From positions 1 to 53,990 of IMG/VR virus record IMGVR_UViG_3300025276_000041: DNA of 53,990 nt; one strand, 5' to 3'. The translations under genes were made by a program, and so were the position numbers. Positions 2,703 through 46,725 of the stretch are shown here, one piece after another (the first letter of the stretch is position 1; every line of letters begins with the position of its first letter). This stretch comes from a virus. A model generated the notes under the pieces. That model saw only the letters and a list, made by a program, of their open reading frames with translations. It ran no database searches and was not told the origin of the DNA.

Positions 2703-3137
2703 ATGGCAAAGATTAGCACGTACACGATAACAGTTCCAACAGAAAACGATATAATCATAGGCACAGACGTTGAGAACACCAACATAACTAAGAACTTTAC
2801 GGCTCTTAGTGTAGCTAATCTTGCTGCCGCTTACACTCTTCAAAATGTCTTAACTGAAGGGAATGTTGCAACATCGAACATGACCTTAACTGGTAATCTT
2901 TCCATTACTGGAAACACCACGCTAACAGGGCCCGTTGTTGTTGCAGGCACATTGCGTGTTGACAGCGCGGGAACTCAGCCTACTGATGGGACTGACGTTG
3001 ATCCCTCGGCTCAACCTATTACACCTATTGTAGGTAGTGGGAAAAGCTCTACTAGATACCTTTCTGAGCCCGACGCGTGGCTTAAGGTAAATATTGGAGG
3101 AACTGAATATGTGTTCCCTGGTTATATACCGGGATAA
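2703..3137 (+). CDS. Virion/tail fibre-type structural protein, 144 aa
   Basis: The N-terminus MAKISTY...D.IIGTDVENTNITKNFT shares its pattern with the protein at 51463 (MARISTY...IGTSANDSNATKNYS). I read this as a shared virion-attachment module. The middle (residues 55-90) has short beta repeats of the type LTGNLSITGNTTLTG, and the C-terminus is YVFPGYIPG. The short length compared with full fibres suggests an adaptor or a reduced fibre. Start ATG at 2703. Confidence 0.7.
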   Translation: MAKISTYTITVPTENDIIIGTDVENTNITKNFTALSVANLAAAYTLQNVLTEGNVATSNMTLTGNLSITGNTTLTGPVVVAGTLRVDSAGTQPTDGTDVDPSAQPITPIVGSGKSSTRYLSEPDAWLKVNIGGTEYVFPGYIPG

Positions 3138-6537: not shown

Positions 6538-8973
6538 ATGAAAGAGGTAAGTATTGACATTTTGCCCTCAGGGTTTCCGAGTCAGTTTGTATCTGACGCA
6601 GAGAAAGCGACTCAAGAGTTTGGGCTCAAGATAGGACAATCCATTCAGTATGAATGGTTTAAAAGAGATAGTGGGTCTTGTAGATACTACGGTCAGTGGC
6701 GTGAATTTAATCGTTTAAGGCTATATGCTAGAGGCGAACAATCGGTTGCTAAATACAAAAATGAGCTTTCTGTAGATGGTGATTTAAGCTATTTAAACCT
6801 AGACTGGACACCCGTCCCTATTCTTCCAAAGTTCGTTGACATTGTTGTAAACGGAATGCAAAGTCGTCAATTTGAAGTTAGAGCATATGCTCAAGACGCT
6901 ATGTCTGCAGGTAAAAGAAACGCCTATCAAGATATAATTGAAGGCGACATGGTAGCAAAAGAGCCATTAACCAAAATGTCAAAAGCTTTTGGAATTGATC
7001 CCTTTCAAATGGATCCTTCTCAATTGCCAAATGATGATCAAGAGTTAGCTCTTTATATGCAGCTAAATTATAAACCATCTATTGAAATAGCAGAAGAAGA
7101 AGCAATCAATACTTTACTAGAAGAAAATCATTACTCTGACATTCGCAAAAGAGTAGACTATGATTTAACAACAATTGGGATTGGCATTACAAAGCAAGAG
7201 TTTTTAGCAGGCGATGGAGTTAGAGTAAGTTATGTTGATCCAGCAAATGTTGTTTATAGCTATACTGAAGACCCTCAGTTTAAAGATTGTTTTTATTGGG
7301 GAGAGATTAAGACACTTCCAATAACTGAACTTATTAAAATTGACCCTAGTCTTACAACTGAAGATTTAGAAACAATATCAAAGTATAGCCAGAGCTGGTA
7401 CGATTACTTTAATGTATCCGATCAGTATCAAAATGATATTTTTAGTAGAGACTCTGCAACTCTAATGTATTTCAATTATAAGACAACAAATAAGTTTGTT
7501 TATAAAAAGAAAGACTTAGATAATGGTAACTCTAGAGTTATAGAGAAAGACGACAACTTTAATCCGCCTGAAGAGATGATGGAGGAAGGTAACTTTACTA
7601 AAGTTGAAAAAACAATAGATGTATGGTATGAAGGAGTTATGGTTATGGGAACTAATATTATGCTCCAATGGAAAATGATGGAGAATATGGTTCGTCCTCA
7701 ATCTGCTTCTCAATACGCAATGCCTAACTACGTTGCAACGGCACCTAGAATGTACAAAGGAAACATAGAGTCTTTGGTTAGAAGAATGATTCCTTTCGCT
7801 GATTTAATTCAAGTCACGCACTTGAAGATGCAACAAGTTATATCAAGAATAGTCCCAGATGGCGTATTCATTGATGCCGATGGGCTTAACGAAGTTGACT
7901 TAGGAACTGGCGCTGCATATAATCCCGAAGACGCGTTACGCTTATACTTCCAAACGGGTAGTGTTATTGGACGTAGCTATACACAAGACGGGGAATTTAA
8001 TAATGCTCGCGTTCCTATTCAACAACTCACATCTAACTCTGGGCAATCTAAAATGGCTGCATTGATTGGCAACTACAATCACTATATGGGTATGATCCGC
8101 TCAGTAACTGGACTTAATGAAGCAAGGGATGGATCCACTCCCGCGCCAGAGGCTCTTGTCGGTGTTCAAAAGTTAGCCGCTTTAAATTCCAACACGGCAA
8201 CTAGGCATATTTTAGAGGGAAGTCTATATATAACCAGAACACTAGCTGAAGCTCTATCTTGCAGGGTTGCTGACATTATGCAATACTCTGATTTTAAAGA
8301 AGAGTTTGCTATGCAGATAGGTAAGTATAATGTGCGTCTTTTGGAAGAAATAAAAGATTTATATATATATGACTTTGGTGTATTTATAGAAATGTCTCCA
8401 GATGAAGAAGAGAAAGGACAGCTAGAAGCTAATATACAAATGGCTTTATCTAGAGACGCAATTGGTCTAGAAGACGCTATTGATATAAGAGAAATAAAAA
8501 ACATTAAGCTAGCCAATCAATTGCTTAAAGTAAAAAGAAAGCAGCATAAAAAAGAAGAGCAACAAGCTGAAATGATGAAACAACAATCTCAAGCTCAGAT
8601 AAATGCTCAATCTCAACAGATGTCTGCACAGATGGCTATGCAAAAAATACAAGCCGAAACTCAAGGGAAAATGCAAATCAAACAAGCGGAAGTTGCTTTT
8701 GAAATAGAAAAACTTAAGAATGAAGCAATGCTTAAGAAAGAATTGATGGCTACGGAGTTTCAGTATCAAATGCAAATAAAAGGCGTTCAAGAAACCGCTA
8801 TTGACAATAGAGAACAAAGCAGAGAAGATTCTAAATCTCAAAGAATAAGTCAACAGAACTCAGAACAGTCTAAGCTTATAAATCAAAGGAAAAACAATTT
8901 GCCTCCAGTAAGTTTTGAGTCTAACGAAGACTCTCTAGATGGCTTTGATTTTGCTGAATTCAATCCTCGATAA
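6538..8973 (+). CDS. Portal protein
   Basis: The 811 aa product follows the terminase with no gap, the standard place for the dodecameric portal through which DNA enters and leaves the capsid. The body has a Trp/Tyr-rich N-terminal part, a long helical section ending in NIKLANQLLKVKRKQ (about residues 650-670), and a Gln/Met/Lys-rich coiled-coil tail (~670-790) full of QAEMMKQQSQAQ-type repeats, as in the C-terminal barrel of podovirus portals. It is in a strong structural operon: terminase, portal, scaffold, capsid. Confidence 0.82.
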   Translation: MKEVSIDILPSGFPSQFVSDAEKATQEFGLKIGQSIQYEWFKRDSGSCRYYGQWREFNRLRLYARGEQSVAKYKNELSVDGDLSYLNLDWTPVPILPKFVDIVVNGMQSRQFEVRAYAQDAMSAGKRNAYQDIIEGDMVAKEPLTKMSKAFGIDPFQMDPSQLPNDDQELALYMQLNYKPSIEIAEEEAINTLLEENHYSDIRKRVDYDLTTIGIGITKQEFLAGDGVRVSYVDPANVVYSYTEDPQFKDCFYWGEIKTLPITELIKIDPSLTTEDLETISKYSQSWYDYFNVSDQYQNDIFSRDSATLMYFNYKTTNKFVYKKKDLDNGNSRVIEKDDNFNPPEEMMEEGNFTKVEKTIDVWYEGVMVMGTNIMLQWKMMENMVRPQSASQYAMPNYVATAPRMYKGNIESLVRRMIPFADLIQVTHLKMQQVISRIVPDGVFIDADGLNEVDLGTGAAYNPEDALRLYFQTGSVIGRSYTQDGEFNNARVPIQQLTSNSGQSKMAALIGNYNHYMGMIRSVTGLNEARDGSTPAPEALVGVQKLAALNSNTATRHILEGSLYITRTLAEALSCRVADIMQYSDFKEEFAMQIGKYNVRLLEEIKDLYIYDFGVFIEMSPDEEEKGQLEANIQMALSRDAIGLEDAIDIREIKNIKLANQLLKVKRKQHKKEEQQAEMMKQQSQAQINAQSQQMSAQMAMQKIQAETQGKMQIKQAEVAFEIEKLKNEAMLKKELMATEFQYQMQIKGVQETAIDNREQSREDSKSQRISQQNSEQSKLINQRKNNLPPVSFESNEDSLDGFDFAEFNPR

Positions 8974-10146: not shown

Positions 10147-11574
10147 ATGGCTGTAGATGCAGTTCCCGGGTTTGACTTACAACCCAGTGCCGAGCGCGTA
10201 GCGCTTGCCACGAATTATATTACTAACTTCAATTTCTTGAATCAGTATCTTCCTGATACTTATGAAAAGGAATTTGAGCGTTACGGTAACCGTACCGTAG
10301 CTTCTTTCTTGAGAATGGTTGGCGCTGAAATGCCTTCTAACTCTGACCTTATCAAATGGGCTGAGCAAGGAAGACTTCACACTAAGTACGTTGATTGTAC
10401 TCCAAAAGCGGCTTTAGCTGCTTCAGATACTGCAACATTCGATGTTAACGATACGCTTAATCCAGGTTCAGGAGGTATCGCTATCAGAGTTGGACAGACA
10501 GTTATGCTTTCAGCTAATTCTCTTTCAACAACTAATAAGGCTATTGTAACTGCAGTAGACTATCCGAATAAAGAATTTACTGTTGCTTTCTATGAGGCGC
10601 TCGGTATGACTGCGGCTACAACTGACAAGTTCACTGTATTTATCTATGGTTCTGAATTTAAGAAAGGAACAGACGGCATGACCAACTCTTTAGAGGCTGA
10701 CGATTCATTTTTTGAGAACTCTCCTATCATTATCAAGGACAGATATGCTGTTTCTGGTTCTGACATGGCTCAGATTGGATGGGTAGAGGTTACTACTGAG
10801 AATGGTGCTTCTGGATACCTATGGTATATGAAGTCAGAGCATGAGACTCGTCTCCGCTTTGAGGACTACCTAGAGACTGCTATGGTTGAGGCTGTTCCTG
10901 CTGCTGCTGGATCAGGAGCTATTGGATTTGCAGGCGCTGCAGGTACTTCTGCAGCTGATGTTGGAAACAAAGGATCTGAAGGTATCTTCCACGTTGTTGG
11001 ACTTAGAGGTAATGTTTGGTCTGGAGGAAATCCAACCACATTGGCTGACTTTGACGCTATGATCGAAAGATTAGACAAGCAAGGAGCTATCCAAGAGAAT
11101 GTTATTTTCTTAAACCGTCAGTTTGGTTTTGATATTGATGATATGCTAGCTGCACAGAACTCTTATGGAGCAGGTGGTACTTCTTACGGATTGTTTGACA
11201 ACGATGAGGAAATGGCTTTAAACTTAGGTTTCAAAGGCTTCACTCGTGGTTATGACTTCTATAAGACTGACTGGAAATACTTAAACGACCCAACTATGCG
11301 CGGTGGTTTAAATGCTGGTAAGATTTCAGGGCTTTTAGTTCCTGCTGGATCTACTACTGTTTATGACCAAATCCTTGGTAAGAACGCAAAGCGTCCTTTC
11401 CTTCACGTTAGATATCGTGCTTCAGAAACTGAAGATCGTCGATATAAGACTTGGATCACAGGTTCTGCTGGAGGCGCTGCAACAAGCAGCCTTGACGCAA
11501 TGGAGGTTAACTACCTTTCTGAGCGTGCAGTTTGTACTTTAGGTGCTAACAACTTCTTCTTGTTTGAAGGATAA
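10147..11574 (+). CDS. Major capsid protein
   Basis: A 475 aa protein after the scaffold, low in Cys and Lys, with alternating strands and Gly/Ala-rich loops and few runs of charge. Features include an N-terminal helix (YITNFNFLNQYLPDTYEKEF), a beta/loop insertion near residues 100-160, and an Ala/Gly-rich loop at 250-275. It forms the icosahedral shell. The base composition is slightly more GC-rich with favoured codons, as expected for the most abundant protein, and the gene is followed directly by a strong terminator. I cannot assign it to a particular capsid family by eye, but position, size and terminator make the call sound. Confidence 0.85.
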   Translation: MAVDAVPGFDLQPSAERVALATNYITNFNFLNQYLPDTYEKEFERYGNRTVASFLRMVGAEMPSNSDLIKWAEQGRLHTKYVDCTPKAALAASDTATFDVNDTLNPGSGGIAIRVGQTVMLSANSLSTTNKAIVTAVDYPNKEFTVAFYEALGMTAATTDKFTVFIYGSEFKKGTDGMTNSLEADDSFFENSPIIIKDRYAVSGSDMAQIGWVEVTTENGASGYLWYMKSEHETRLRFEDYLETAMVEAVPAAAGSGAIGFAGAAGTSAADVGNKGSEGIFHVVGLRGNVWSGGNPTTLADFDAMIERLDKQGAIQENVIFLNRQFGFDIDDMLAAQNSYGAGGTSYGLFDNDEEMALNLGFKGFTRGYDFYKTDWKYLNDPTMRGGLNAGKISGLLVPAGSTTVYDQILGKNAKRPFLHVRYRASETEDRRYKTWITGSAGGAATSSLDAMEVNYLSERAVCTLGANNFFLFEG

Positions 11575-40087: not shown

Positions 40088-40128
40088 ATCTTTAATTTGA
40101 TTTCTTGGTTATTAACGCACTATGCGTT

Positions 40129-40203
40129 GAGCTGTCAGAGGACTCGAACCTCTCGTCTAACCACAAACGTACCATAGACAGCAACAGACTGAGGCTTTGC
40201 CCC
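40129..40203 (-). ncRNA. Candidate tRNA-like element
   Basis: On the minus strand this 75 nt stretch has a perfect T-arm: AGAGG-TTCGAGT-CCTCT (40137-40153). It is directly followed by GACAGC (40131-40136), which pairs with GCTGTC (40177-40182) upstream, giving an 11 bp acceptor/T minihelix. Only 23 nt lie between, so in this fold there is no room for both D and anticodon arms. Read at full tRNA length instead, the 5' end (GGGGCAA) does not pair with the 3' end. It is therefore either a degenerate tRNA, a tRNA mimic or an attachment-type remnant. It fills the only long gap in this part of the operon, just after the 40206 stop, with an AACGCA/TGCGTT hairpin after it. Confidence 0.4.
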
Positions 40204-40825: not shown

Positions 40826-41094
40826 AATCCTAAAGCTTTTTTAAGCGTTAATGTTGCCATCTCATCTTGGTACATCTCTTTCGCTACATCGTCAATAGAT
40901 ATCAGCGTGTATGGTTCAACACCAACAAGTTGTTCTACGACTCCATTATTAATCTCAATTACCCTGTCAAGCAGTTCGTTAAAGTAGTCCTGAGCCTCAT
41001 CGGTATAAGAGCCGTTTAAACGTCCTTTACCTTGGAAGTGCTGATCGACATACTCGCCAACCGCATCTATGATTTCAATTTCTCTATCATTCAT
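40822..41094 (-). CDS. Hypothetical protein, 90 aa
   Basis: An acidic alpha-helical protein (DREIEIIDAVGEYVDQHFQG, DYFNELLDRVIEINNGVVEQ) with a likely strand LISIDDVAKE. ATGA overlaps at both ends link it to the genes on either side. It contains one GTTTAAAC string (41014-41021) inside the coding sequence. Not recognised. Confidence 0.6.
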   Translation of the reverse strand: MNDREIEIIDAVGEYVDQHFQGKGRLNGSYTDEAQDYFNELLDRVIEINNGVVEQLVGVEPYTLISIDDVAKEMYQDEMATLTLKKALGL

Positions 41095-41414
41095 GATTCT
41101 AGCATTTTAATAAATTCTACTACTGCTTGGTAGGTTCCTTGTAGCTTGGTTTGTCCTTGCTTACATATTGTTATACCACCCCCATTAATGTTGCACTCAA
41201 ACACTTCAATCATTACATTAAAGAAGTTATCTGAATTATCATCATTGTCTGTTGTGATGCATTCAATCTTCTCTACCACAGGCATCAACCAATTCCAATC
41301 GGTTTGAAATTTACTCAGAGATTTAATCGTGTGTGTCCACTCTCCGTTATCAAAACTTCTTTCATCTGAGTATTTCATACCCATAAATTCTGCAATCATT
41401 TTATTATTATTCAT
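41091..41414 (-). CDS. Hypothetical protein, 107 aa, with conserved leader
   Basis: A mixed alpha/beta protein: MIAEFMGMKYSDERSFDN, KFQTDWNWLMPVVEKIECIT, a strand FNVMIEVFECN and a C-terminal helix AVVEFIKMLES. The MIAEFMG...WNWLMPVVEKI pattern recurs in small phage proteins but I cannot name it. It is the last of five genes preceded by the repeated leader (here 41431-41456, 16 nt before the ATG). Confidence 0.6.
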   Translation of the reverse strand: MNNNKMIAEFMGMKYSDERSFDNGEWTHTIKSLSKFQTDWNWLMPVVEKIECITTDNDDNSDNFFNVMIEVFECNINGGGITICKQGQTKLQGTYQAVVEFIKMLES

Positions 41415-41430
41415 CTTAATTTATTTTTAA

Positions 41431-41456
41431 TGGTTATGACCATCCCCCGAAGGGGA
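41431..41456 (-). promoter_or_regulatory. Repeated leader element, copy 1
   Basis: On the minus strand, hairpin TCCCCTTCGGGGGA (UUCG-type loop) directly followed by TGGTCATAACCA (41431-41442), then 16 nt to the ATG at 41414. The GTTTAAAC palindrome lies just upstream (41460-41467). Confidence 0.7.
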
Positions 41457-41472
41457 GGTGTTTAAACGAGCT

Positions 41473-41823
41473 CTATTCTGCATTTTTTGGGTAAAGCATC
41501 TGAGCTATATATGCATAGACTCTCTTAGCTTGGGCATCAGACATCTCTCCCGCCTCTTGGTGAATCGTCAGGATATTCATAACAAGAGCTAAGGTTGTAT
41601 CAACGCACCTTTGTGGAGGTAGTGAGGCTACTTCGTTAAATGCACCTAAGCTTACCCTCTCATCAAATCCCTCTTCATAAACGGACTCTGTAACTACCAT
41701 TCGATGTTTTTTTGCTTCTTTCTCTAAAGCCTTAAGACAAGAGATGTATGTCTCTTCACTATTAAATGTTGCTACCTTTTCTGCGTAAGAATGTTTTGGT
41801 GTTTCAAAATATACTGTTATCAT
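41473..41823 (-). CDS. Hypothetical protein, 116 aa, with conserved leader
   Basis: An alpha/beta protein: N-terminal strand MITVYFETPKHSYAEKVATF, helix SCLKALEKEAKKHRMVV, then helices ALVMNILTIHQEAGEMS and QAKRVYAYIAQML. No catalytic motif is seen. It has leader copy 2 in front and the GTTTAAAC palindrome just after its end. Confidence 0.6.
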   Translation of the reverse strand: MITVYFETPKHSYAEKVATFNSEETYISCLKALEKEAKKHRMVVTESVYEEGFDERVSLGAFNEVASLPPQRCVDTTLALVMNILTIHQEAGEMSDAQAKRVYAYIAQMLYPKNAE

Positions 41824-41839
41824 TTTAAATAAATTTAAT

Positions 41840-41865
41840 TGGTTATGACCATCCCCCGAAGGGGA
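41840..41865 (-). promoter_or_regulatory. Repeated leader element, copy 2
   Basis: TCCCCTTCGGGGGA hairpin, then TGGTCATAACCA (41840-41851), then 16 nt to the ATG at 41823. Hairpin and core are identical to copy 1. Confidence 0.7.
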
Positions 41866-41911
41866 TGCGCTTAAGATTTTAAAACTTACTTATGGCTAGC
41901 CCCCTTGCTTG

Positions 41912-42352
41912 TTAGTTTATCTTCCTCCAATATCCTTGAGCATATTTATCTTGACATAGCCAAGTATCTCGGTTAACACCTTTTACAACCGCAGTCCAAT
42001 GCGAGCCATATCCAACCCTGACATCAAAAATATAATTCTCATCTTCAGATAAGATACTCTTGTGCTTATACATAACTTGCTTTTTTCGGTCTTTAATAAG
42101 ACTGATTCTTTCCCAGCCTTTTCTTTCCATATAAATAGTCAAAGTAAATATTGAATTCCCGTCTGGTCTACCCAATTCGTTAACAGCTATGTCTGATAAA
42201 TCTCTAAGGGTTTGCATATAGTCTTGTTCTAAAGCTAAAGCGCAAGCCCTAACCGCACAATCCCCAACATAATCTTTTTTTCTTCCTGTGAGAAAATAGT
42301 TTTCCCTACCCCCGTGAGAAAGTTCATATTTGATATAATCGATTCTTTTCAT
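41912..42352 (-). CDS. Papain-like/C39-like cysteine peptidase-like protein, 146 aa
   Basis: The arrangement GDCAVRACALA (C32 in a helix start), then GSHWTAVVKG (H118) and DTW (D129), gives the Cys-His-Asp order and spacing of papain-fold peptidases and transglutaminase-like enzymes. It is the size of a single domain. Phages encode such proteins for host takeover or DNA-protection functions, but the substrate is unknown. The catalytic reading is from residue order only. It has leader copy 3, 16 nt before the ATG at 42352. Confidence 0.6.
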   Translation of the reverse strand: MKRIDYIKYELSHGGRENYFLTGRKKDYVGDCAVRACALALEQDYMQTLRDLSDIAVNELGRPDGNSIFTLTIYMERKGWERISLIKDRKKQVMYKHKSILSEDENYIFDVRVGYGSHWTAVVKGVNRDTWLCQDKYAQGYWRKIN

Positions 42353-42368
42353 AATAAATAGTTTTTAA

Positions 42369-42396
42369 TGGTTATGACCAAGCCCCCAGAGGGGCT
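42369..42396 (-). promoter_or_regulatory. Repeated leader element, copy 3
   Basis: Stem AGCCCC-TCTG-GGGGCT (42381-42396) followed directly by TGGTCATAACCA (42369-42380) and 16 nt to the ATG at 42352. The stem differs from copies 1 and 2 but keeps pairing. Confidence 0.7.
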
Positions 42397-42402
42397 AGAG
42401 TT

Positions 42403-42595
42403 TTAACAGTTTTCTTCACAGTATTCTTTGAATAGTCTAGATACTTTTCTATTCGTGTTTAGAGTATCTATAACTTCGCCTTCTAAAAGAACATCTGATC
42501 CAGATATAAACTATACCTTCATAGTTGATTGAGTAGACTTCACATCCTCTAAGCATTATTAAAGTGTCTAAAGAGTTTTCATTTAATGTATTCAT
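42403..42595 (-). pseudogene. Small gene with apparent frameshift, ~65 aa if corrected
   Basis: ATG 42595 opens a frame reading MNTLNENSLDTLIMLRGCEV and YSINYEGIVYIW, then leaves sensible coding at about 42502-42510 (a TATAT run) and stops at 42449 (48 aa). The +1 frame from there reads SGSDVLLEGEVIDTLNTNRK and then VSRLFKEYCEENC to a stop at 42403, which looks like genuine protein. A 2 nt loss in the TATAT run would explain it (YEGIVYI-SGSD). It may be a sequencing or assembly error, a recent mutation or a programmed shift. It has its own leader (copy 4), as its neighbours do. Confidence 0.6.
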
Positions 42596-42610
42596 GATAT
42601 ATAATTTTAA

Positions 42611-42638
42611 TGGTTATGACCATCCCCTATAAAGGGGA
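42611..42638 (-). promoter_or_regulatory. Repeated leader element, copy 4
   Basis: Stem TCCCC-TTTATA-GGGGA (42623-42638), then TGGTCATAACCA (42611-42622), then 15 nt to the ATG at 42595. Confidence 0.7.
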
Positions 42639-42648
42639 ATGGAGGCGT

Positions 42649-43263
42649 TTAAACGACTTGAAGTGATCCATCTGCACACGCTAAACAATCGATGTCTTCA
42701 TCTACAAAGACATTGCCTAGCATTGAGTCGATGTTCTTTTGACTCGTCCTAAAGCTAAATCCGCAACACTCACACTCTACCTTTATGTTTCGTGTTCCTT
42801 GCTTTTTGGCGTTAGTCGGAGTAGTCATCATGTCGTGCGGGAACTCGCCGATCTTCTTGACAATCTTATCACATTTAGACTTTAACTCTGGGCCCGCCTC
42901 GGTAGCTCTCATCTTGCCCGTAAGGCCGATCTTGAGCGCCATGTCTCTGAAGACTTTGCCGTGGCCGTTCTTGTTATTGTCAATTGCGTGGATCAGCTCA
43001 TGAGCTAGGACATCGAGTGTTCTGGAGCTCTTCTTGCGATCAAAGAAAAACGGGTTCATGAATATCTCATGATTGCCCGCAGTGCTACATGATGTGTGCC
43101 AATTTTCGCCGATGCTAAGATTTTTCTGTTTCCTAGTTCCACTGCTCATTATTGATACAGACACATTTACTTTAGGAACTTTTAGCCCGACAGGCTCAAA
43201 GACCTCCCTTGATAGCTCTTGAACTCCTAGTTGGAGCCAAGCTTCTCTATTAACAGTTTTCAT
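42649..43263 (-). CDS. SprT-like zinc metalloprotease
   Basis: A 204 aa protein with the SprT/SPRTN-like catalytic motif HELIH (88-92) followed by H101 in NGHGKVF, the third zinc ligand. A C-terminal zinc ribbon has C164/C167 (CECCGFSF) and C193/C196 (DCLAC). In eukaryotes SPRTN cleaves proteins crosslinked to DNA; phage versions may remove DNA-bound host proteins or process virion proteins, though this is inference. First gene of the leader-bearing series (copy 5). Confidence 0.82.
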   Translation of the reverse strand: MKTVNREAWLQLGVQELSREVFEPVGLKVPKVNVSVSIMSSGTRKQKNLSIGENWHTSCSTAGNHEIFMNPFFFDRKKSSRTLDVLAHELIHAIDNNKNGHGKVFRDMALKIGLTGKMRATEAGPELKSKCDKIVKKIGEFPHDMMTTPTNAKKQGTRNIKVECECCGFSFRTSQKNIDSMLGNVFVDEDIDCLACADGSLQVV

Positions 43264-43278
43264 AATAAATAATTTTAA

Positions 43279-43311
43279 TGGTTATGACCAACTAGGTAAA
43301 CGATACCTAGT
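43279..43311 (-). promoter_or_regulatory. Repeated leader element, copy 5
   Basis: Stem ACTAGGT-ATCGTTT-ACCTAGT (43291-43311) followed directly by TGGTCATAACCA (43279-43290) and 15 nt to the ATG at 43263. The stem is AT/GC mixed and unlike copies 1-4, yet perfectly paired. Confidence 0.7.
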
Positions 43312-43740
43312 CAGTTGGTTTCGGGCATTGCTGTGGAAGAGTCTTGATACTTACCTCCTAGCCTACGTTTGATCCAGATAGCCCCACCACATCCCTGTGG
43401 CATGCCCCTCTCGGGGTCTTCAGATAACCTCTCTGGCGTAGCGAGCTTTCGCTCGGTTTTAAGGACATGGATAATGCAACTGATTTTGTGCAGTTTTAAC
43501 TCTGCCATCCGTCTCTCGGGCTCTAACCGACTCTCGGGGTGGAGGATTTAACGATTATCATGCATCAAAGTGCTGACAATCAGGGTGTTACGTTGCGATT
43601 TCCAATATTTCAATGTACAGTGTGCCTCAACAGCTCTGTAACAATACGACCTTTTTATTACCTGACCAAATCTTCATGACTCACACTAGGTTTGCGGACT
43701 TTGGTATTCTTACTTTTTGTTTAACCCTTTGTTCATCAGG
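43312..43740 (-). ncRNA. Candidate structured RNA upstream of the early operon
   Basis: Read on the minus strand. CGAGC-GAAA-GCTCG (43442-43455) abuts a two-part helix: CTACG+CCAGA (43432-43441) pairs with TCTGG (43374-43378) and CGTAG (43363-43367) across a 6 nt bulge. Inside it are CCCC-GAGA-GGGG (43405-43416) and CCACA-GGGA-TGTGG (43387-43400). Upstream, CAGTT/AACTG (43478-43495) is enclosed by GGATGG pairing with CCATGTCC (43463-43470/43505-43510). Three GNRA tetraloops on one strand, nested helices and higher GC than the surroundings point to a folded RNA rather than a gene. Outer limits are uncertain: the confident core is 43363-43510. A 65-codon minus-strand frame (43311-43508) overlaps it. 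Possible kinds are a phage ornate large RNA (GOLLD/ROOL-like), a ribozyme or a long operon leader. I do not recognise a known family. Confidence 0.55.
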
Positions 43741-44759: not shown

Positions 44760-46379
44760 ATGAGTGAATTAGGATATAGCCCAAAGGATTTAACCTTTGA
44801 TTCAAATGCGCGCAAGCGTCTTCAGAGTGGTATAAAAAAGATTAGTAAGGCGGTAAAGTCTACATTAGGCCCTAGGGGTAAGACTGTCTTGATAGAGAGT
44901 CAGAATCATACTAGGGGAATTACCGTTACTAAGGACGGTGTGACTGTAGCAAAGAGCATAGACTTATTAGATCCTGTAGAGAACCTGGCGATACGTATGG
45001 TCAAGGAGGCTGCGGACAATACTGCAACTAGTGCTGGTGATGGAACGACTACGGCTATAGTCTTGACCGAGGCGATTGCATCGTTGGGCATGGATGCCAT
45101 AGATGATAGTGTCAGCTCTACCGAGGTGATAAGAGAGATAGGGAAGCTCACTGACGATGTGGTGAAGCGATTGAAGAAGATGTCGAGGAAACTTGGCAAG
45201 CGAGGACTGCTTGATGTAGCTACGATAAGCTCTAATAATGACAAGGAGATAGGTCGGGTGATTGCTGATGTGTACGGGGCGATTGGTGACAATGGTCTTG
45301 TGACGGTAGAGAAGAGCATGACCGAGGAGACGTACCACGAGGTGACGGATGGGATAAAGATTGACAAGGGTTATACCAACAAGATGTTCGTCAACAACCA
45401 GAAGAAGGACGAGTGCATACTAGAGGACGCTCATATTCTTATGACAGACCACGAGATTACAAACGTTCTGGCGATAGAGAGCATACTAAAGCCCGTGATA
45501 CAGAGTGGACAGCCACTACTGATTATTGGGAGCTGTTCAAACCAGGTGGTGAACACCTTGGCGGCCAATGTTGTCAAGAGCGGTCTGAAGATATGTAACA
45601 TAATGCCTCCTCAGTTTGGATACAAGCAGCATGAGTTGATGGGTGATATAGCCGTCAGTGTGGCTGGGAAGTTTATGAGCGAGAGCCTTGGCGATGACCT
45701 TAGCACAATAACCATGGCTGACCTAGGTAAGGCAGAGAAGGTGATTGTAGGGAAAGATAACACGATAATCATACGTAACGAAACTAATCCAGAGAGCATA
45801 AAGGCCAGAGTAGAGGAGCTTTGGGTTGCTCATGACCATGCTAAGATTAAGCACGAGCGTGACTTCGTAAAAGAGAGAATCGCATCCTTAACGGGAGGGA
45901 TAGGAGTGATATATGTCGGTGCCAATAGTGATATCGAGCAGAAAGAGAAGTACGATAGGGTTGACGATGCCGTGTGTGCCGTCAGATCCGCACTCGAAGA
46001 GGGTGTGTTGCCAGGAGGAGGGCTTGCCCTGTACAACCTGAGCCATAAGTATATGCTCAACGACAAGATGTGGGACGCTAAACAGAGCAGTAAAGAGTCT
46101 CGTATCGCCAATAGAATAATGTCAGAGGCGCTTGTGTCTCCCATGAAGCAGATTATGGTCAACGCGGGTCTAGACCTAGACACTATTATGGACAGTGTTC
46201 AGGGTGAGAACGTAGGCTACGACGTGAAGAACGAATGCTATGGTGATATGTTTAAGATGGGGGTGGTTGACCCACTAAAAGTCACAAAGAACGCGCTAAA
46301 GAACGCATCGAGTGTCGCGACAACGATCCTCAGTACCAACGCCATTGTAACTTTGGCTAGGACATATACCGCTGAATAG
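44760..46379 (+). CDS. groEL: Phage chaperonin GroEL (Hsp60)
   Basis: A 539 aa chaperonin subunit, near the bacterial 548. ATP and catalytic motifs are intact: TKDGVTVAK (D59), AGDGTTTA (D94) and KYDRVDDAV with D403 equivalent to E. coli D398, followed by LEEGVLPGGG. The intermediate and equatorial domains are easily recognised. The apical, substrate-binding part (~200-370) is diverged (LLIIGSCSNQVVNTLAANVV, MPPQFGYKQHELMGDIAVS). The usual C-terminal Gly-Gly-Met tail is missing; it ends ARTYTAE. It would fold phage structural proteins with the GroES encoded next to it. The codon and base composition is more GC-rich than the neighbours (a 60 nt sample at 45121 is ~48% GC), suggesting separate origin or expression tuning. 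Confidence 0.93.
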   Translation: MSELGYSPKDLTFDSNARKRLQSGIKKISKAVKSTLGPRGKTVLIESQNHTRGITVTKDGVTVAKSIDLLDPVENLAIRMVKEAADNTATSAGDGTTTAIVLTEAIASLGMDAIDDSVSSTEVIREIGKLTDDVVKRLKKMSRKLGKRGLLDVATISSNNDKEIGRVIADVYGAIGDNGLVTVEKSMTEETYHEVTDGIKIDKGYTNKMFVNNQKKDECILEDAHILMTDHEITNVLAIESILKPVIQSGQPLLIIGSCSNQVVNTLAANVVKSGLKICNIMPPQFGYKQHELMGDIAVSVAGKFMSESLGDDLSTITMADLGKAEKVIVGKDNTIIIRNETNPESIKARVEELWVAHDHAKIKHERDFVKERIASLTGGIGVIYVGANSDIEQKEKYDRVDDAVCAVRSALEEGVLPGGGLALYNLSHKYMLNDKMWDAKQSSKESRIANRIMSEALVSPMKQIMVNAGLDLDTIMDSVQGENVGYDVKNECYGDMFKMGVVDPLKVTKNALKNASSVATTILSTNAIVTLARTYTAE

Positions 46380-46416
46380 TTAAAAAATTCGAACACTAAG
46401 CCTTGAAACAAAAGAT

Positions 46417-46725
46417 ATGAAGCCAATTGGGAAATATATTATCATAAATAAGATTAGCGAGCAGGTAAAGACAGATTCGGGGCTTATTCTCTCTGATGAC
46501 GAGGCGACAACCTTCAGATATAAGAAGGCAGAGGTCGTTAAGGTGGGCACGGAGGTGACTGCTATTGCCGATGGGGACATAATATACTATGACCGCAACA
46601 CAGGGCACACTATGATTATCGATGAGACAACATACTCGGTGATTACCGAGAGAGACGTCGTAGTTGTTGACTCTCCTGGCGAAGATTCAGCATATACTTC
46701 CGATAAACCTTGTCAGTGTAAGTAG
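46417..46725 (+). CDS. groES: Phage co-chaperonin GroES
   Basis: A 102 aa protein with the GroES pattern: start KPIGKYIIINKI, mobile loop EQVKTDSGLILS (15-26), then KAEVVKVGTEV, DGDIIYYDRNTG, and the final strands TTYSVITERDVVVV. The C-terminus has an extra GEDSAYTSDKPCQCK tail. It follows groEL by 37 nt, probably on one transcript, and would cap the GroEL ring. Its last 83 nt overlap antisense to the 46643 gene, so the tail may be shaped by that overlap. Confidence 0.85.
   Translation: MKPIGKYIIINKISEQVKTDSGLILSDDEATTFRYKKAEVVKVGTEVTAIADGDIIYYDRNTGHTMIIDETTYSVITERDVVVVDSPGEDSAYTSDKPCQCK

Follow-up and report, generated by a model that had tools for sequence, protein, structure and literature searches.

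The window, meaning the whole stretch of 53,990 bases analysed here, is a virus record in which five early genes on the minus strand each have a variable hairpin and an invariant core just before the start codon. This leader element is almost certainly the cut-site half of a type I hammerhead ribozyme, the variable hairpin being its stem III. The five copies share one anatomy and one position, they are complementary to a single catalytic strand, and they are conserved in relatives. As the catalytic half is present in copy 1 only, one RNA enzyme probably cuts the long viral message before each of the five genes. Our overall reading, to which we give a probability of roughly 0.62, is that copy 1 is a type I hammerhead-like "master" which cuts copies 2–5 as its substrates, in trans or at a distance.

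Phage and early leaders

The record belongs to a podovirus-like phage of Bacteroidota, with terminase relatives in Flavobacterium elemo phages, Cellulophaga phages and the Manatee Spring podovirus MW202828. A scan of viral contigs recovered a near-identical record (L016/L049) and a distinct relative, UViG_3300025168_000228 (L009, L010, L050). The genes concerned and the sequence upstream of them are as follows.

41091..43263, minus strand: five leader-bearing genes (ORFs), the first for a SprT-like protease
ATG at 43263, minus strand: SprT-like protease gene (PF10263)
ATG at 42595, minus strand: short ORF after copy 2
ATGs at 42352, 41823 and 41414, minus strand: three further leader-bearing genes (ORFs)
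43264..43720, minus strand: non-coding sequence of ~450 nt upstream of the first gene, conserved with L050, which holds the master; this stretch is without an Rfam match

The exact sequence TGGTCATAACCA was found on the minus strand at all five places where the sequence-only reading had put its leaders (41431-41442, 41840-41851, 42369-42380, 42611-42622 and 43279-43290), and the gaps between core and ATG (16, 16, 16, 15 and 15 nt) also match that reading. The 11-mer GGTCATAACCA occurs in the five leader copies and nowhere else in the 53,990-base record. Every copy has a hairpin which ends 0-2 nt before GTC, the stems of which differ between copies and yet pair as had been described; the scores of these hairpins are equalled by just 0.2-3% of positions in the same region. 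The invariant core proposed earlier is real, with a change of borders: the functional core is GGTC+ATAACC(A), while the first T is part of the hairpin or of a short extension to it, the base before GGTC being T in 14 and C in three of the 17 cut-site-only copies of the window and L050. Both selection on structure in the RNA strand and a fixed spacing to the ATG had been suggested; relatives show compensatory changes for the former and bear out the latter. An ordinary terminator had rightly been set aside, there being no U-run directly after the hairpins, where GGTCATAACC comes next, and a Bacteroidota sigma-A promoter likewise, as TAnnTTTG is absent from the 70 nt before all five genes.

The suggestion that the core itself folds as a UGGU-CAUA-ACCA mini-hairpin fails, since the minimum free energy (MFE) structure has it in one of five copies only. 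The core is instead a hammerhead cleavage triplet plus a stem I strand, the partner of which, GGUUAU, lies 5′ of CUGAAGA, upstream of copy 1 only. RNA processing, one of several roles listed for the element, thus fits, but the catalytic half of copy 1 had been overlooked; it lies at 43319-43429, beyond the region described at the time (41431-43311). A likeness of TCATAACC to an initiator tRNA anticodon loop was weighed and then dropped. Hairpin promoters of the N4 type for a virion RNA polymerase were also rejected, as loops and stems are not conserved; nor was a polymerase identified, the 2831-aa protein having a single D-x-D-x-D match and no informative family match.

Several other features lie in the same region. 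The short gene after copy 2 (42449-42595, minus strand) is truncated relative to near-identical L016 by a 2-nt difference (TATATCTGG vs TATATATCTGG), the frame of the L016 counterpart being open for longer. The phage codes for GroEL (Cpn60) and GroES-like (Cpn10) chaperonins (44760-46725), divergent from the early operon. At ~44032 (minus strand) there is a T-run of 8-10 followed by GAGGGGGGG, which, with close variants, is also present at L050 1967 and in L072, L100, L124, L067 and L069 and stands upstream of the early operon in several distant relatives; it is possibly an origin, terminator or promoter signal. There is also a tRNA-like element at 40115-40190 (minus strand), conserved in the relative (L010, about 2935-3015), which possesses a GCTGTC...GACAGC stem, a D-arm-like segment and a full T arm, is without an anticodon arm, and is followed by the hairpin AACGCATAGTGCGTT and AATAACCA ahead of the next gene. 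ARAGORN reported zero tRNAs on the window.

Copy 1, a hammerhead-like ribozyme

Copy 1 is made up of the following elements, all on the minus strand.

43280..43429, minus: copy 1, the master, a complete hammerhead-like ribozyme whose stem II region is expanded (exact core elements, MFE, compensatory changes against L050)
43424..43429, minus: stem I 5′ strand GGTTAT, pairing 6/6 with ATAACC and abutting CTGAAGA
43417..43423, minus: catalytic box CTGAAGA (CUGANGA)
43386..43416, minus: two inserted hairpins, CCCC-GAGA-GGGG and GCCACA-GGGA-UGUGGU (in the MFE structure)
43323..43384, minus: stem II region, GGGC (43381-43384) pairing with GCCC (43323-43326) (MFE and centroid)
43319..43322, minus: GAAA (G12 A13 A14 A15.1), then CC
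43287..43319, minus: stem III hairpin, A15.1 to U16.1
43280..43288, minus: cleavage site GUC^AUAACC, predicted cut between 43286 and 43285

The catalytic half stands ~130 nt upstream of the cut-site half, and the order GGUUAU-CUGAAGA ... GAAAC-stem III-GUC^AUAACC, with an exact 6-bp stem I, is the layout of a type I hammerhead. The CUGANGA box is directly joined to the stem I 5′ strand (GGTTAT-CTGAAGA, 43417-43429), GAAA (43319-43322) runs straight into stem III, the A15.1-U16.1 pair is present (43287), and the cleavage triplet NUH adjoins the stem I 3′ strand (GTC^ATAACC). In the unconstrained MFE structure of 43278-43437, stems I and III are closed with CUGAAGA and GAAA unpaired; the centroid has the same junction, with GGGC/GCCC beside GAAA as stem II. 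The CCCC/GGGG stem of the insert is CUCC/GGAG in L050, so that pairing is kept.

No 10.1-11.1 closing pair directly on A9 and G12 was found in copy 1: GCCC abuts G12, but two hairpins separate A9 from GGGC. This insertion makes copy 1 a variant and not a textbook hammerhead. Rfam gave no significant match to copy 1 in the window, and a covariance model of relatives' hammerheads missed the window master even with filters off; its best match in L050 pairs another 5′ strand, one that is not kept in the window. The fold is only mildly stabler than shuffles (z -1.5). Judged by its core elements and fold, copy 1 is very probably a functional hammerhead variant.

Ribozymes before the start codons of relatives

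Canonical type I hammerheads stand just before start codons in a number of related phages, with seven in L129, five each in L110 and L081, three each in L056, L059 and L113, and two in L124. Strict matches to the type I pattern number 40 in 988 kb, with none in reversed and none in shuffled sequence, and the distance from cleavage site to ATG is 13-35 nt (n=39). In an alignment of 24 of these hammerheads with full core and three stems, 97.4% of cells are paired and 14 of 16 pairs have double compensatory changes. Pairing was one of the criteria by which candidates were chosen, which inflates these counts for stems I and III and gives the reversed and shuffled controls more weight. In other relatives the same leader position is taken by type III hammerheads, and the early-gene leaders of L116 and L125 have Rfam Pistol ribozymes. 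Among the cis-hammerhead phages examined, L110 alone yielded a cut-site-only copy, and only one. One type I and one type III hammerhead candidate occur in a cultured Flavobacterium elemo phage; MW202828 gave no hammerhead, and neither did the examined part of the Cellulophaga phage Calle_2 genome.

The Pistol ribozymes are five in number (L116 4510-6234 and L125 2156-3129, minus strand), and the same two loci have many further GTTTAAAC palindromes, in genes and leaders. Perfect or near-perfect palindromes also occur in place of type I hammerheads in MW202828 (L052, 13733-25170), L130 and L115, namely GTGTCGTTAACGACAC (14 copies), GTGTCTTTAAAGACAC (six) and AGTACGGTCAACCGTACT-like sequences (six), many of them before start codons and some within genes. 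Other repeated leader motifs precede start codons in L071 and L113, these being AACGTTATAAT (four copies) and TTATTCACTAA (four copies, two of which come after hammerhead-like leaders). The related cultured phage Calle_2 (L142, 9464-10867) encodes RtcB, a ligase which joins the cyclic-phosphate and 5′-OH ends left by ribozymes.

Relatives with one master and many sites

The distinct relative has the same design as the window. L050 has 14 copies of GGTCATAACCA, one complete and 13 cut-site-only, and in 13 of the 14 the ATG comes 14-17 nt past the core. In the remaining copy (~6786; L010 480-720) there are ~185 nt between cut site and gene, a spacer that is possibly structured, with AAGGGT...ACCCTT ends and an internal CTGATAAGCAATCGAAAC.

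GroEL neighbourhoods, situated divergently from this early operon, were scanned and gave 80 further loci, including a second group (L072/L133, L073/L135, L100/L136) with a variable hairpin, GTCAGTTAC, a leader and an ATG. Its master, GUAACU-CUGAUGA...GAAAC-hairpin-GUC^AGUUAC, is found upstream of the first copy only. A single master is thus accompanied by four cut-site-only copies in the window, 13 in L050, eight in L133, eight in L135 and six in L136. Two hairpins likewise separate CUGANGA from stem II in the masters of L133, L135 and L136, and pairs are kept from L133 to L136 as CCAGAG/CUCUGG becomes CCAUCG/CGAUGG and ACU/AGU becomes ACC/GGU. A covariance model built from the 24 complete hammerheads, with no masters included, detects the L133 and L136 masters (E 0.027 and 0.017; 18-19 bits). 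The catalytic core is not canonical, because A9 is split from stem II in both masters and the 10.1-11.1 pair is missing in L133/L136. L136 has in addition one separate complete hammerhead with its own stem I, as expected if stem I keeps the sets distinct. Pattern and protein scans for a third master lineage returned just the two known ones. The matches outside such leaders in the first (20 of 23 loci) and second (25 of 28) viral pattern scans were rejected as chance matches.

Cut-site copies

The other four copies in the window have the cut-site half only.

42612..42641, minus: copy 2, hairpin plus GGUC^AUAACC; cut between 42618 and 42617, before ATG 42595
42370..42396, minus: copy 3, cut-site half only; cut between 42376 and 42375, before ATG 42352
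41841..41867, minus: copy 4, cut-site half only; cut between 41847 and 41846, before ATG 41823
41432..41456, minus: copy 5, cut-site half only; cut between 41438 and 41437, before ATG 41414

No CUGANGA box with a stem I of at least 5 bp was found within 300 nt upstream of copies 2–5; copy 4 has a single 4-bp match, which lies in upstream coding DNA and is without GAAA at the hairpin. The same search, up to 300 nt upstream of 31 cut-site-only sites in the window, L050, L133 and L136, returned no convincing catalytic half. It gave two weak CUGANGA/stem I matches of 4 and 5 bp (window and L133), neither of them with GAAA at the hairpin.

In L133 and L136 the core is invariant, but identity between copies over the 18 nt before it is only 30%, which is close to random. 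A clear hairpin is retained in 12 of their 14 cut-site-only copies. One L133 copy, at 11337, is without a hairpin, and another, at 8821, has a mismatch in it. Each version of the core matches its own catalytic strand, AUAACC sites occurring with a GGUUAU master and AGUUAC sites with a GUAACU master. Position 16.3, just 5′ of GUC, is G in all 17 sites of the window and L050, the master there having C15.3; in L133 and L136, with A15.3 in their masters, 11 of 14 sites have U. Cis ribozymes have G there in 3/24 and U in 2/24 (Fisher against the sites 8e-9 and 2e-5, values which overstate the case because copies in one genome are not statistically independent). With the stem I complementarity, this pattern indicates that the sites fit their own master on both sides of the cut.

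This last evidence bears on two other accounts of copies 2–5. They may be retained half-ribozymes that the master does not cut, spread with gene cassettes and kept because a hairpin and a short A+U-rich leader aid mRNA stability or translation in the way that the ends of a cut ribozyme do. Their leader length and A+U-rich sequence are indeed like those of complete ribozymes, and leader-bearing genes have been gained and lost between the window and L050. However, such an account leaves unexplained why GUC and six stem I bases are invariant amid diverging neighbours, and it does not explain why 16.3 tracks the master; we consider it unlikely, though the strongest of the competing accounts. Less likely still is that a protein, either a phage or host endoribonuclease or a translational regulator, binds hairpin and core, catalysis at copies 2–5 having been lost and the resemblance inherited. 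A hairpin with a single-stranded core is a common form of protein site, but a protein gives no reason for the existence of two core versions that can each pair with the catalytic strand in the same genome. Cleavage of copies 2–5 by the master, in trans or at a distance, is the probable explanation on the basis of this matching.

Proposed mechanism

The master would first cut itself after GUC. Its freed GGUUAU strand could then form 6 bp with the AUAACC strand of each further site, and the GAAACC end could pair with GGU, the hairpin of that site supplying the remainder of stem III in the trans complex. The master would then cut every site after GUC, either in trans or at a distance in the same transcript; distant cis cleavage is considered along with trans because a shared early transcript would raise the effective concentration. 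In this manner the early polycistronic RNA would be converted into single-gene mRNAs with short 5′-OH leaders (22-23 nt in the window), and the upstream products would receive hairpin-capped 3′ ends. We infer catalysis, the cutting of copies 2–5 by the master and a benefit for gene expression from the genomes compared. The main physical doubt concerns the strand break that would fall between A14 and A15.1 in a trans complex, where the substrate hairpin would replace stem III of the master.

Type I hammerheads hold their catalytic parts on the cyclic-phosphate fragment and have been noted for possible trans ligation (PMC3088659). The 5′ fragment of the master, which would have a cyclic phosphate and keep its stem I strand, might accordingly be ligated to the 5′-OH leaders of other mRNAs as a common leader, and the location of the master at the end of ~450 nt of conserved RNA would suit such a role. 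Ligation would still require the sites to be cut first, and we regard it as very improbable. It can practically be dismissed that the element acts at the DNA level as a repeated phage promoter or operator, in the manner of the T4-type cassettes of stem-loop and early promoter. The repeats do stand before the start codons of an early module, and MW202828 and L130 have a perfect palindrome in that position, but the stems are unrelated between copies and still paired, a number of the loops are of the UUCG or GNRA kind, and the element is marked as a ribozyme by its catalytic half and by comparison with relatives.

Evolution of the design

One master accompanied by many cut sites is found, as a design, in two separate parts of the phage group. 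In a maximum-likelihood GroEL tree, the window and L050 group with L055, L056 and L124, and of these L056 and L124 have complete hammerheads with the stem I GGUUAA/UUAACC. L072, L073 and L100 lie in a distant clade with other cis-hammerhead phages. As the two master lineages are apart in the tree, each beside phages with complete hammerheads, the design probably arose twice. The simplest reading of these genomes is that one-ribozyme-per-gene arrays may twice have been replaced by one master with cut sites. On balance we lean towards the general statement that one hammerhead at the head of an operon cleaves many hairpin-marked sites, and that this arrangement replaced one-per-gene arrays at least twice.

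Comparison with known systems

Natural hammerheads are held to be self-cutters, trans-cutting forms being laboratory designs. If the reading given here is true, these phages possess a natural ribozyme that cleaves RNA at many sites, a single catalytic strand being matched by as many as 13 of them, and it offers a route by which a self-cleaving ribozyme turns into a true enzyme. In the literature searched, which most subscription papers fall outside, no natural hammerhead serving many sites is described, an absence that is no proof. Many phages of the clade have a hammerhead I, a hammerhead III or a Pistol just before early genes, and the long-standing question of what purpose phage ribozymes serve thereby becomes directly testable.

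The PeSL (promoter early stem-loop) cassettes of T4-type phages consist of a terminator plus a promoter and not of a ribozyme. They are likewise repeated hairpin-bearing intergenic units of a plastic early region, though no ribozyme is present there. The L129 hammerheads resemble RAGATH-1 (RF03152), the best score of 34.8 bits being under the 56.3 cut-off, and Pistol (RF02679) takes the same leader position in L116/L125; both models gave zero matches in the window itself.

A discontinuous hammerhead of mammalian Clec2 3′ UTRs was reportedly described by Martick and colleagues in 2008. Its catalytic strand lies at a great distance from the cut-site strand within a single mRNA (PMC6155905), and it has one site per ribozyme, is of type III and has a very large helix I, whereas here one catalytic strand is accompanied by many sites. 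In engineered trans-cleaving hammerheads ribozyme and substrate are split, with short helices for recognition (PMC6155905); these are man-made, and in the phages stem III would come mainly from the substrate's own hairpin. Several complete hammerheads flank prophage genes, for which transcript processing has been proposed (Perreault et al., 2011; PMC3088659). In those arrays every site is a complete self-cleaving ribozyme, while here one complete copy is found with 4-13 that are cut-site-only.
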